This document shows positions 2,539-15,237 of a stretch of 30,552 nt of DNA, in pieces; position 1 is the stretch's first letter, and every line of letters starts with the position of its first letter. Location: positions 1-30,552 of IMG/VR virus record IMGVR_UViG_3300031857_000934. One strand, given 5' to 3'. The stretch comes from a virus. A program made the position numbers and the translations under genes. Below the pieces are notes generated by a model. The model was given only the letters and a program-made list of their open reading frames with translations, did not search any database and was not told where the DNA came from.

Positions 2539-2682
2539 ATGATTACACTTAACGAAACACAAGTTAAAGAGCTTGAAGCTTTTATCCAGGAGATGCCTAC
2601 CAAATTTGGATTGCCTCTACTAGAATTCTTTAGTAAATTAGCTAAAGAGCAAAAATCTAATGAAGAAAAACTACCAGAATGA
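2539..2682 (+). CDS. Small 47-residue protein
   Basis: The ORF starts ATG ATT ACA CTT AAC and encodes MITLNETQVKELEAFIQEMP and so on, ending in EEKLPE. It is mostly charged and predicted helical. It sits directly behind a good promoter, and its stop overlaps the next start (ATGA at 2679-2682), the usual coupling for real genes here. No function recognised. The N-terminal MITLN is shared with the 41-residue ORF at 5079. Confidence 0.6.
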   Translation: MITLNETQVKELEAFIQEMPTKFGLPLLEFFSKLAKEQKSNEEKLPE

Positions 2683-3224
2683 GAAAATATTCTTACGTAG
2701 AATTAGAAAACAAGTTCAAAGAACTTGGATACGAGTGGCCAGCCTTCCATATAATTGGAACGAGATCGGCAGCTAACGAAAAAAACAAGTTTGATGATTA
2801 CTTCTATTTGATTAAAGGTCCAATAATGTACGTATTTTCAGGAACTACTAATCCTGGGACTCACTGGCTAAAGAATTTGCTAAATCCTAAGGGAACTGCA
2901 GTCCTCAAGCCAGGACAATATATAGATGCTTATCAATTAGGCTTGCATCAAGGTAAATATGAAGCATTAGTGCAACGTAAACCTGTAACTGTATACCGTG
3001 ATGGTGACAAAGATGATACTGCAGAAGAACAGGGTAAAGAAGATACCGGTTTATTTGGTATTAACATTCACCGTGCTAACCCATCGGCTATTTCTAAACT
3101 TATAGACAAATGGTCAGCAGGTTGCCAAGTGTTAGATGATCCCGAACAGTTCAAAACATTGCTTAGTTCTTGTAAGACATCGGGTAAAAAAGCATTTACT
3201 TATACATTACTAAGAGAATTCTAA
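2679..3224 (+). CDS. Putative peptidoglycan-active enzyme, YkuD-like HX14SAGC motif (candidate endolysin)
   Basis: 181 residues with no signal peptide. Residues 126-150 (FGINIHR...KWSAGCQ) hold His131, then 14 residues, then Ser146-Ala-Gly-Cys149. This is the spacing of the catalytic His/Cys motif in YkuD L,D-transpeptidase folds (HX14-17 S/T-x-G-C). Residues 48-80 (GPIMYVFSGTTNPG...LKPGQY) and 100-108 (KPVTVYRDG) fit a beta-sandwich leading to that motif. The next genes encode holin-like and spanin-like proteins, which supports a role in host wall breakdown. The fold assignment is inference from the motif; cleavage of peptidoglycan is not shown. It overlaps the upstream ORF by 4 bases. Confidence 0.6.
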   Translation: MRKYSYVELENKFKELGYEWPAFHIIGTRSAANEKNKFDDYFYLIKGPIMYVFSGTTNPGTHWLKNLLNPKGTAVLKPGQYIDAYQLGLHQGKYEALVQRKPVTVYRDGDKDDTAEEQGKEDTGLFGINIHRANPSAISKLIDKWSAGCQVLDDPEQFKTLLSSCKTSGKKAFTYTLLREF

Positions 3225-3472
3225 TGCTAAAATGGATAAAATCAATGTTCTCTGCTGAAGGAGATGTAAGCTACAAAAGAGTTGGGTCATTCCTAGCTCT
3301 TTTGACGTGCTTAGTCATTGCATATGTGTCAACATTTACAATTTACATCTGTCCAGAGTTTATCTATGATGGATTATTGATTTTATCAGGAGCAGGAATG
3401 GGATTTACAGCCGTAGAAAACGTATCAAAAGTATTCGGAAAACCAAAACAAGATGGGCAATCAGAACAATAA
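3224..3472 (+). CDS. Holin-like two-helix membrane protein
   Basis: 82 residues. A short amphipathic N-terminus (MLKWIKSMFSAEGDVSYKRV) is followed by two predicted membrane helices at about residues 21-42 and 47-64 with a short loop, and a charged C-terminal tail (KVFGKPKQDGQSEQ). Size, topology and position after the putative lysin fit a small class II-type holin. Start and preceding stop overlap by 1 base (TAATG). No residue-level signature proves holin activity. Confidence 0.6.
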   Translation: MLKWIKSMFSAEGDVSYKRVGSFLALLTCLVIAYVSTFTIYICPEFIYDGLLILSGAGMGFTAVENVSKVFGKPKQDGQSEQ

Positions 3473-3818
3473 AGTAATTTCCTTACAAGGAGTACTATTT
3501 GTAGTAGGAGCAATACTAGTTGCATTAATTATAGGATTAATTTCCCAGCTACAAGCTAGTAAAGAAGAAAAAGCCAAGGCAGATGCTAAACTAAAAGTGA
3601 TAGCAGACTTGTACGAGCTCAAAATTGACTCAATAAAGACAATGCACACTATAGATAGCCTAGCTTTCAACGATAGTATCAACAAATACAAGATACTAGC
3701 AAATGCAAACCTAATCATTAACATAAAAAAAGACAGAGATGAAGTCATTGGTCGTATTTCTAGTGCTGATAACAATGAACGTGATCAGCTATGGGCAACT
3801 TACTCCCCAAAGAATTAA
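3453..3818 (+). CDS. Inner-membrane spanin-like (Rz-like) protein
   Basis: 121 residues. A single N-terminal membrane helix (about residues 12-31) is followed by a long charged helical region (SKEEKAKADAKLK... to the end) that should form a periplasmic coiled coil. This is the architecture of i-spanins. The gene overlaps the holin-like gene by 20 bases, and its last 80 bases also encode the N-terminus of the next protein in another frame, reminiscent of Rz/Rz1 pairs. The call rests on architecture and position because spanins are not conserved in sequence. Confidence 0.55.
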   Translation: MGNQNNKVISLQGVLFVVGAILVALIIGLISQLQASKEEKAKADAKLKVIADLYELKIDSIKTMHTIDSLAFNDSINKYKILANANLIINIKKDRDEVIGRISSADNNERDQLWATYSPKN

Positions 3819-4185
3819 TTACAACGGCCAGGCCGGAGTATTCTTTACAACTAAGCAAGAAGAAACTTTGCTAAAAGCAATGGTAGACTTAGATGCTTGT
3901 AAGAAAAGTGAATTCCTGCTAAATCAAAATGTTAAATCCTATGAAATAAGATTAGCAGATAAAGACTTGGCAATCAAGACGTTAACTGACTCATATGTTA
4001 AATGTCAGGATTCGAATAAAATAAACCTTGAAAAGATTGGTACACTACAGCTAGATGTCGACAACTTAAATCTTGAACTTGATAATACAAAAGGAGAACT
4101 TACTACTTATAAAATTTCAACAGGAGCATTTGTGTTAACTACTGCTGTATTCCTTACTACTACTGTAATTGCACTAGTTAAATAA
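3739..4185 (+). CDS. Secreted coiled-coil protein with C-terminal membrane anchor (second spanin candidate)
   Basis: 148 residues. Residues 1-19 form a signal peptide (MKSLVVFLVLITMNVISYG, likely cut before Gln20). There is no lipobox Cys, unlike classical Rz1 or the unimolecular spanins. The middle is helical coiled coil (ACKKSEFLLNQNVKSYEIRL onward), and a membrane helix lies at about 124-147. The start is embedded in the +1 frame of the preceding Rz-like gene, an 80-base overlap. It is a candidate partner for that protein, but a C-terminal inner-membrane anchor would be unusual for an outer-membrane spanin subunit. Confidence 0.55.
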   Translation: MKSLVVFLVLITMNVISYGQLTPQRINYNGQAGVFFTTKQEETLLKAMVDLDACKKSEFLLNQNVKSYEIRLADKDLAIKTLTDSYVKCQDSNKINLEKIGTLQLDVDNLNLELDNTKGELTTYKISTGAFVLTTAVFLTTTVIALVK

Positions 4186-4242: not shown

Positions 4243-4518
4243 ATGGAAAAATTAAATTTCGAACCAACACGTGACTGGTTGGTAGTCCCAAAGCCGGACA
4301 AAAAAGTTACAGATGCAGGTATCATCTTATCAGATCGTTCAGCATCACAATTACGTTCTAACGTACTTCCAGTATTAGCTGCAGGTCCAGATTGCAAATG
4401 CAAAGTTGGGGATGTAGTTTACATTCATCCGTCTAGTGATGGAGTAATCGTTGAGTTGAATGACTCAGAGTACGTTATGATTAATGAATCAATGGCCGTT
4501 CTTGGGATAGTAAAATGA
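4243..4518 (+). CDS. GroES-like co-chaperonin (Cpn10)
   Basis: 91 residues, against about 97 for bacterial GroES. It starts LNFEPTRDWLVVPKP, the typical Cpn10 first strand. It has a mobile-loop region (residues 18-39) containing the hydrophobic tripeptide Ile27-Ile28-Leu29 after AG, equivalent to the IVL that docks GroES to GroEL, and the late strand KVGDVVYIHP...YVMINESMAVLGIV. The product should form a heptameric lid on the host chaperonin, probably to fold capsid or other virion proteins, as T4 gp31 does. It has its own promoter and its stop overlaps the next start by 4 bases. No GroEL-like gene is present in the window. Confidence 0.85.
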   Translation: MEKLNFEPTRDWLVVPKPDKKVTDAGIILSDRSASQLRSNVLPVLAAGPDCKCKVGDVVYIHPSSDGVIVELNDSEYVMINESMAVLGIVK

Positions 4519-13815: not shown

Positions 13816-15237
13816 ATGTCAGTAATGCAAGTTTTAAAGACGTACTATAACGATAGTCAGATGACCGATACTAACTCATTGGTTAATGCACTTATGGAAC
13901 GTCCAGAGGAGTTATCTCCTATTATTACTCACTTAGCAGGTCGTGAAGAAAAGAAGTTCCCATTGTCTTTCTTAACTGAAGGTGTTGGAAACACTAAATC
14001 TATCGATCGTTTTGAGTATGAGTACCGTGTTAAAACACACGAAATTAATGTTCGTCCTGTTGTTGTAGGATTGGGTGCAGCTGCTGGTGCAGGTGGAGCT
14101 CCTTTCTACTTAACTTTCCCAGACAAATGGTTCGTATTCCCTTACACTCTTGTTTCTCAATCAGGTGTATTGGCACGTATCATGGCTGAGCCAGTTGCAG
14201 ACGGAAGTGGTTGGAAGTATACTTTGAAAATCGTATCTCCTGATACTGCTAACGTTCCTGCTGCTGACGTAGCTGCTGGTGCTCTTTGGGGTCAATTGTA
14301 TGCTAACGTAGGTGTAGATTTCTCTCGTGGAAATGCTTCTAACTGGACTGCTCCAGGTTTAGTTCGTTCTAAGATTGGAACTATCCGTAAGTCTTACCAC
14401 TTCTCTGGAAATGCTAAAGACTATGTTGCACAATTCGAACTTCCTTTGAAAGAGGGTAGCAAAACTAAGTTGTGGATGGATTACGAAGAGTACCGTCACA
14501 TGTTGAAGTTCAAAGAAGAGTGTGAAATGTACTACTGGTACGGTCAAAAAACTCACGATGCATCTGGTACTTCTACCATGTTGGATGAGAATGGTCAGCC
14601 AGTTATTTCAGGTCCTGGTCTTCTTGAGCAAATCATCAACAAAGACACTTACTCTACGTTGACTCAAACTAAACTTGAAGAAACAATTGGAGATTTGTTC
14701 TATGGTATGACTGATGCTACAGACAAGCAAGTTACCCTTTACACTGGTATTGGTGGAGCTCGTGAGTTTGACAAAGCTCTTAAGTCTTACTATGGTGCTA
14801 ACACTTTCCTACAAACAACTCAACCATACTTCATCACTGGATCTGGTCGTAACTTGGGAATCACCGGTTACTTCACTAGCTACCAACACGTTGATGGTTA
14901 CTCAGTGAATGTAGTTAAGTCTCACTTGTTTGATCACGGTCCTGTTGCTCAAGCTTCTCAAAAGCACCCAGTATCAGGTCTTCCACTTGAGTCTTACCGT
15001 ATGGTATTCGTTGACCAATCAACTTATGACGGAGAAAACAACTTGCAAATGATCAATAAAAAAGGTCGTGAGTTACTTCGTTGGTGTGTTGCTGGTTCAG
15101 TAGTTCCAAAAGGATTTACTGCTAACGATAGCCGTGCTAGTGATATAGACGGTGCTTCTGTTCATATGCTTAAGACTGCTGGTATCTTACTTCGTCGTTT
15201 CGATACAAGCTTAGATCTTAAGTGTATTGCATCGTAA
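13816..15237 (+). CDS. Major capsid protein
   Basis: 473 residues. Segments such as FPLSFLTEGVGNTKSIDRFE, the late KHPVSGLPLESYRMVFVDQS, TYDGENNLQMINKKGRELLR and the C-terminal HMLKTAGILLRRF fit what I recall of crAss-like HK97-fold capsid proteins. Order after portal and scaffold also fits. No N-terminal cleavable delta domain is obvious, in line with the separate scaffold gene. The Arg codons I read are all CGT and Ala/Leu/Thr codons are dominated by GCT, CTT/TTG and ACT, unlike most neighbours, a sign of high expression. A strong terminator follows. Confidence 0.92.
   Translation: MSVMQVLKTYYNDSQMTDTNSLVNALMERPEELSPIITHLAGREEKKFPLSFLTEGVGNTKSIDRFEYEYRVKTHEINVRPVVVGLGAAAGAGGAPFYLTFPDKWFVFPYTLVSQSGVLARIMAEPVADGSGWKYTLKIVSPDTANVPAADVAAGALWGQLYANVGVDFSRGNASNWTAPGLVRSKIGTIRKSYHFSGNAKDYVAQFELPLKEGSKTKLWMDYEEYRHMLKFKEECEMYYWYGQKTHDASGTSTMLDENGQPVISGPGLLEQIINKDTYSTLTQTKLEETIGDLFYGMTDATDKQVTLYTGIGGAREFDKALKSYYGANTFLQTTQPYFITGSGRNLGITGYFTSYQHVDGYSVNVVKSHLFDHGPVAQASQKHPVSGLPLESYRMVFVDQSTYDGENNLQMINKKGRELLRWCVAGSVVPKGFTANDSRASDIDGASVHMLKTAGILLRRFDTSLDLKCIAS

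Follow-up and report, generated by a model that had tools for sequence, protein, structure and literature searches.

A conserved out-of-frame overlapping gene pair, spanin-like and without a lipobox, behind the endolysin-like gene of crAss-like phages

The window, by which we mean the whole 30,552-nucleotide stretch of IMG/VR record IMGVR_UViG_3300031857_000934 that was analysed, carries two small genes, X and Y, which overlap out of frame; the same pair is present in several crAss-like groups of viruses that infect Bacteroidota, close behind the gene for a cell-wall-cutting enzyme. X and Y are two real genes that share DNA, both are under purifying selection and their overlap is nearly frozen. 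The pair is conserved, lipobox-free and spanin-like, and a function in lysis is likely: we put at roughly 0.6 the probability that X and Y form a two-subunit, spanin-like complex of the lysis stage that does without a lipid anchor. In the parts of the literature that were covered we found no worked-out mechanism by which Bacteroidota phages, crAss-like phages included, break the outer membrane. X/Y is a concrete and conserved candidate that lipobox-based filters throw out; without the fatty anchor that defines the known spanin pairs, it may break the outer membrane differently. Cultured carriers (crAss002 and Rudgehvirus jaberico) make the question testable. The features are collected in Table 1.

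Table 1. Features of the putative lysis region, numbered from the first base of the window
Feature	Position	Strand	Basis
Endolysin-like gene (181 aa)	2679..3224	+	phrog_33083 'endolysin', E = 2.5e-13; phrog_3000 (unknown function), E = 8.1e-34
Holin-like gene (82 aa, two hydrophobic segments)	3224..3472	+	position and hydrophobicity alone, dG -0.83 and +1.72
Gene X, i-spanin-like (121 aa)	3453..3818	+	ORF; pN/pS outside the overlap 0.25; AF2 model
X membrane helix, about aa 8-30	3474..3542	+	dG -1.03, KD19 2.86
X distal mini-helix, aa 107-117, within the overlap	3771..3803	+	AF2; conserved
Gene Y, secreted partner without lipobox (148 aa)	3739..4185	+	ORF; pN/pS outside the overlap 0.27; AF2 model
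Y signal peptide, aa 1-19, predicted signal peptidase I cut SYG^Q	3739..3795	+	sequence
X/Y out-of-frame (+1) overlap, 80 bases	3739..3818	+	kept in relatives; divergence 0.035 versus 0.18-0.20 outside
Y mature N-terminal motif, about aa 28-36, possible short beta turn	3820..3846	+	low-confidence AF2 beta bridge aa 28/31 alone; conserved
Y long periplasmic helix, aa 38-125	3850..4113	+	AF2; ten-residue pLDDT means at least 90 over aa 41-120
Y weakly hydrophobic C-terminal tail, aa 126-147	4114..4179	+	dG +0.34, KD19 2.09

The window covers part of the genome of a crAss-like phage. The capsid protein encoded at 13816-15237 has a match to the Crassvirus capsid family PF23898 (E = 4.3e-83), and TerL (phrog_6681) and the portal (phrog_6547) also place it in the Crassvirales. 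Between 2679 and 4185 the genes run in the order endolysin-like, holin-like, X and Y, so in this phage of Bacteroidota the pair follows an endolysin-like gene and then a holin-like one. X and Y have the arrangement looked for in a spanin pair, whose genes are adjacent, overlapping or nested and lie near lysis genes. Pfam and PHROG searches with the holin-like gene gave no match above the cut-off, and the endolysin profile had no match among solved structures. Relatives of the endolysin are present in 29 phage records, and seven of the 11 that were opened are Crassvirales. They also occur in Gammaproteobacteria, at genome loci of Microbulbifer and Thalassotalea, and in the P2-like Pseudoalteromonas phage ACA1 (L035, 3411-4031), where the gene lies between those for the tail tube and the tail assembly chaperone, an odd position for a lysis enzyme. 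Immediately 3' of Y the window has a GroES-like gene (4243-4518; Cpn10, E = 5.5e-5; phrog_3188, E = 2e-9).

The coordinates, the reading frames and the 80-base +1 overlap given in the original prediction all proved correct. The values of pN/pS and of divergence in Table 1 come from 19 distinct loci (171 pairs); the low pN/pS of both genes and the drop in divergence inside the overlap argue that the pair is more than a chance coincidence of reading frames. As to the nested genes with which the pair had been compared, X and Y overlap but are not nested. A search for the same overlap in related phages found it in 21 of the 26 loci of the first scan; these are all the loci at which neither gene is truncated, a contig end cutting into the remaining five. 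L022, one of the 21, does not differ from the window in any of the four genes and could come from the same virus.

Taken alone, X would pass as an i-spanin under published criteria, having a predicted N-terminal transmembrane domain followed by a periplasmic helix, and the original description of it as i-spanin-like, with an N-terminal membrane helix and a coiled coil, is in line with dG and with the long helix of the AF2 model. The model shows a single long helix over residues 11-102 (mean pLDDT 85.4) ahead of the distal mini-helix. Because the pTM of the X and Y models is 0.38-0.41, they were read for secondary structure alone, and in this respect both are essentially single helices. The cysteine needed for the usual disulfide between partners is missing from window X; across the family 5 of 71 X proteins have one in the ectodomain, and in 1 of 71 cases both partners do. 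Neither Pfam nor PHROG gave anything informative for X and Y, with no spanin family of PHROG matched by either window protein. Window X has sub-threshold matches of the coiled-coil type (Pkip-1, 0.00053, below the cut-off; phrog_15627 'K+ transporter', 0.00018), and X proteins of relatives match Rz-like PHROGs weakly (0.0022 at best, and 0.0067). Searching X or Y directly against 50,697 phage records with tblastn returned no match.

The reading frame of Y opens just four codons 5' of its ATG and has no other start codon there, and its cysteines are residues 54 and 89, with none before 54, so no lipobox is possible in Y. This upholds the claim that the protein lacks one, a lipobox at an alternative start having been looked for and not found. 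In the family, 68 of 71 distinct Y proteins do not match the lipobox pattern. When both strands of the window were scanned for a lipobox, the sole candidate was an ORF antisense to X (3622-3461); it was rejected as an o-spanin, being interrupted in 8 of 19 relatives. The claim that Y has a cleavable signal peptide is supported by motif. The predicted cut places a glutamine at +1, which fits the Q-rule for Bacteroidetes signal peptidase I sites as given in the portion of PMC5837995 that was covered. When 17 diverse Y proteins are aligned, this residue, Q20, is the sole invariant column, and [AGSTC]Q occurs within residues 15-36 of 67 of the 71 distinct Y proteins, against a chance expectation estimated at about three in ten. 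The AF2 model of Y starts with the signal peptide, passes through a stretch of low confidence whose single beta bridge is at 28/31, and continues as a helix over residues 38-147 that includes the tail; comparison with solved structures returned generic coiled coils only.

The pair is widespread behind related endolysins. An alignment-based scan took the best 80 of 597 confirmed IMG/VR matches to the endolysin, 71 of which have at least 900 bases behind the gene; some of these loci share contigs with the first scan (e.g. L043 with L002 and L045 with L007). It flagged 49 of the 71, one of which was spurious and was dropped (L100, two holin-like ORFs). The pair is thus found at 48 of the 71 loci with room among these best 80 matches, always in the +1 frame and with overlaps of 77-185 bases. 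The 23 loci without a real pair in the scan are L100 and 22 unflagged loci, all of which were inspected by eye (L092, L093, L096, L097, L103 and L106 among them). By eye the pair is present at L107, where X starts late; at L092 X is present and Y is cut by the contig end; at L067 the pair lies 2 kb further on; and at L093, 673-1356 bases behind the end of the endolysin, an X-like gene is overlapped by a gene for a longer secreted Y-like protein (∼227 aa, with an SQ cut site). As a control, 339 kb of other phage DNA scanned on both strands gave three hits, the known u-spanin T1 gp11 and two antisense chance hits, and a further 139 kb of phage DNA gave none.

The same design occurs in all seven Intestiviridae/Crevaviridae loci that were opened (cr271_1, Rudgehvirus, crAss002, cr107_1, cr127_1, ctcc615 and cr8_1), the two genes overlapping by 74-125 bases and in every case +1; this count needs the annotated start of Y to be moved upstream in six of the seven and the missing X to be added in ctcc615. 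In the deposited annotations of these loci (L028-L034), the late Y starts and the omitted X hide the signal peptide and the overlap. Comparison of the window family with these pairs by hhalign was not significant (probability 5% for Y and 23% for X), and the link between them therefore rests on architecture and synteny. Three loci in Bacteroidota MAGs (L151, L160 and L169, the last two from the same MAG) have the design near an endolysin with an overlap of only 4 bases, so a long overlap is not required. In a scan of genomes, 80 loci were kept of 153 confirmed and 78 had room; the pair was present at three of the 78, and another lipobox-like ORF was present at two (L137 and L176). Relatives in which the two genes are separate and outside a lysis locus were sought, and the relatives, including the three MAG loci, stay near the endolysin. 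In total there are 79 pair loci: the window, 21 from the first scan, the seven named crAss-like loci and 50 from the endolysin scan, after leaving out a copy of the window (L027), L035-L042, L100 and any pair that overlaps by less than 40 bases or in another frame. A capsid search was positive in 7 of 20 chosen records and in 5 of the 18 that bear the pair; the others are fragments or other phages.

The proposal that the design belongs to Bacteroidota phages holds for several groups but not for all. We did not find the pair in the whole genomes of crAss001, FpV4 and B124-14, in phi14:2 (all but 499 bases), in 49.9 kb of cr118_1, a Suoliviridae phage of 92.6 kb, in P2559S (1-40000 of 44988) or in the 7.6 kb surrounding the DAC16 endolysin. 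The Steigviridae covered by these scans lack it. The idea that X/Y could explain the 'spanin-less' phages B124-14 and P2559S was accordingly rejected for the whole of the former and for 1-40000 of the latter. Single proteins lie near the holin or lysis genes of crAss001 (gp27; L124, 25093-25695), cr118_1 (L209, 46364-46984), phi14:2 (L125, 18731-19309) and B124-14 (L039, 6765-7370). All four have a membrane helix at the N-terminus, a long helix and a C-terminus that looks beta-rich by eye; gp27 itself has a weak match to DUF6549 (E = 0.0017, below the cut-off). In Bacteroidota phages without X/Y, such proteins may represent a further lipid-free design. Bacteroidota genomes also have single proteins of ∼200 aa behind a holin-like gene (L141, L147, L150, L154, L159, L161-L163, L166, L172, L173, L175, L189, L197 and L199), with an N-terminal membrane segment (a cysteine near its end in some), a long helical stretch and a C-terminal hydrophobic tail; these resemble X and Y fused in one chain.

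The periplasmic lengths of X and Y correlate across the family, with rho of 0.79-0.84, or 0.64-0.79 once the overlap is removed (15-23 representatives). The two lengths differ by 14-15 residues (about 15; sd 8-9), whereas their sum has an sd of 21-24, larger than that of either alone. Length contrasts on the endolysin tree (70/74 pairs) give r = 0.57 and 0.47, values reached by 0 and 1 of 2000 permutations, respectively; the signs of the contrasts are near even for full lengths (16 the same and 14 opposite) and run 24 to 8 without the overlap. This suggests that the X and Y helices lie side by side. End-to-end bridging is disfavoured because the two lengths increase together rather than holding a constant sum.

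Which membrane holds the tail of Y is less clear. The C-terminal segment is hydrophobic, as first described, but weakly so: dG is +0.34 for window Y, -1.03 for window X and -3.81 for T1 gp11, with family medians of +0.22 for Y tails (24 of 71 below zero) and -1.32 for X helices (70 of 71 below zero), values of which only the relative order is safe. By Kyte-Doolittle (KD) hydropathy the gap is smaller (medians of 2.17 for Y and 2.61 for X), with Y the lower in 63 of 71. The 12 residues preceding the tail have a mean of 3.3 K/R versus 0.3 after it, where 0.65 residues follow on average, and in many relatives these charges are placed contrary to a type I topology; in window Y the flank charges are balanced and the charge signal is weak. 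The inner-membrane anchor first suggested for Y is thus not established. The simplest reading is still a type I protein in the inner membrane; with even charges on the two sides of the window tail and dG usable for ranking alone, we give it roughly twice the weight of the outer membrane.

In the arrangement that we favour, X would be a type II inner-membrane protein with its helix standing in the periplasm. Y would be exported by Sec and, judging by its motif, cut by signal peptidase I, leaving an N-terminal glutamine of the kind that Bacteroidota cyclise. The long helix of Y would run alongside X over most of its length, as the co-varying lengths suggest, and its weakly hydrophobic tail would lie in a membrane, in the simplest case the inner one, so that the tips of both proteins (the mini-helix of X and the N-terminal motif of Y) would sit at about the same distance from that membrane. 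On the spanin paradigm, the holin would open the inner membrane, the endolysin would remove the peptidoglycan and the X/Y complexes, once free, would form clusters and break open the outer membrane.

The tail of Y also bears on an alternative in which Y is a tail-anchored o-spanin: its tail would pass the translocon and enter the outer membrane from the periplasm, making X/Y an antiparallel, lipid-free bridge. The marginal tails fit this, as do the basic residues ahead of them (the opposite of T1 gp11, with its basic end after the transmembrane domain), and equal X and Y lengths are also compatible with a full-length antiparallel pair. Against it are the balanced charges in the window, the dG values being safe in relative order only, and the smaller hydropathy gap, and anchoring in the outer membrane by hydrophobic alpha-helices is rare; we regard this alternative as unlikely, although it deserves serious consideration. 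That Y is instead a former lipoprotein o-spanin which lost its lipobox, some relatives still being lipoproteins, seems improbable. The Y signal peptides of three Obtuvirinae (L028, L033 and L034) contain LLSC, an ambiguous sequence that could be a lipobox, but the aligned cysteine column is S in L029-L031 and I in L032 (where a Cys comes one place earlier, after L-L), two of the three have a plausible downstream signal peptidase I site (LYA^N), and the lipobox pattern is absent from nearly the whole family, as above.

What ties X/Y to lysis is genomic position, and the pair could be a lysis regulator (an antiholin or a timing factor, for example), with the outer membrane broken by another protein or without a dedicated one. 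The window covers 30.5 kb of the phage, and close relatives have contigs as long as 78-84 kb. A spanin nevertheless accounts better for two coupled proteins whose periplasmic helices are long, and the window has no lipobox candidate beyond the interrupted antisense ORF, which leaves a regulatory role rather improbable. A pair that does not serve lysis at all, such as a superinfection-exclusion or other envelope pair that travels with the endolysin, is very improbable: some related endolysins do lack X/Y, but the position behind the endolysin is constant across distant lineages, and in one lineage a conventional spanin pair occupies the same slot. At L103/L104 (4548-5185), whose proteins are letter-identical and are counted as one lineage, the same type of endolysin is followed by an i-spanin, a lipoprotein o-spanin (LSSC) and then a holin-like gene. 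We consider this to be the best argument that X/Y would do the job of a spanin. The L104 record has a divergent crAss-like capsid.

X/Y could represent a third spanin architecture, a two-component and lipid-free disruptor of the outer membrane in Bacteroidota phages with either parallel helices in one membrane or an outer-membrane tail anchor, common to animal-associated and environmental crAss-like phages; we advance this tentatively, at somewhat less than even odds. A literature search at the level of titles and abstract openings, with most subscription journals and bioRxiv outside its scope, returned no description of such a pair. In the parts of these sources that were covered, Kongari et al. 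(2018; PMC6139136) allow that a type I inner-membrane protein might serve as an i-spanin, none having been searched for; PMC12596118 filters out o-spanin candidates that lack a lipid box and reports Bacteroidetes phages with unimolecular spanins only; PMC10136315 mentions spanins in crAss-like phages without description; and PMC10367356 points, apart from spanins, to signal peptides of the Q-rule type in P. gingivalis phage genes whose function is unknown. By the published criteria, which require a lipobox, Y as predicted fails both as an o-spanin and as a u-spanin; the latter combines a lipobox with a C-terminal transmembrane domain in one protein, and Y has no lipobox and a tail that is weakly hydrophobic.

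Among known systems, X/Y is like Rz/Rz1 of lambda and the overlapped class of the P2 type, in the part of PMC6139136 that was covered, in having a type II i-spanin-like protein, an out-of-frame overlapping gene, a place in a lysis cassette and an exported partner. Unlike Rz1, Y has no lipobox, has a long helix and a C-terminal hydrophobic tail, and is almost free of proline (mean 0.8%), and window X does not have the cysteine for the disulfide, a feature described as potentially universal in two-component spanins although not strictly defining. The gp27 type of the Steigviridae and Suoliviridae resembles X in its N-terminal membrane helix, its long helix and its position adjoining a holin-like gene, but it is a single protein, no Y partner having been found, with a different and apparently beta-rich C-terminus. 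The L103/L104 pair shares with X/Y the slot, the two small genes and the helical partners, with a 4-base overlap, but its o-spanin is by motif a lipoprotein and has no C-terminal tail. The unimolecular spanin T1 gp11, which the X/Y scan picks up, is like Y exported with a C-terminal hydrophobic segment; it has a lipobox (LSGC) and a strong transmembrane domain with a basic end and, in the part of PMC6139136 covered, acts alone, whereas Y has neither and is paired with X.
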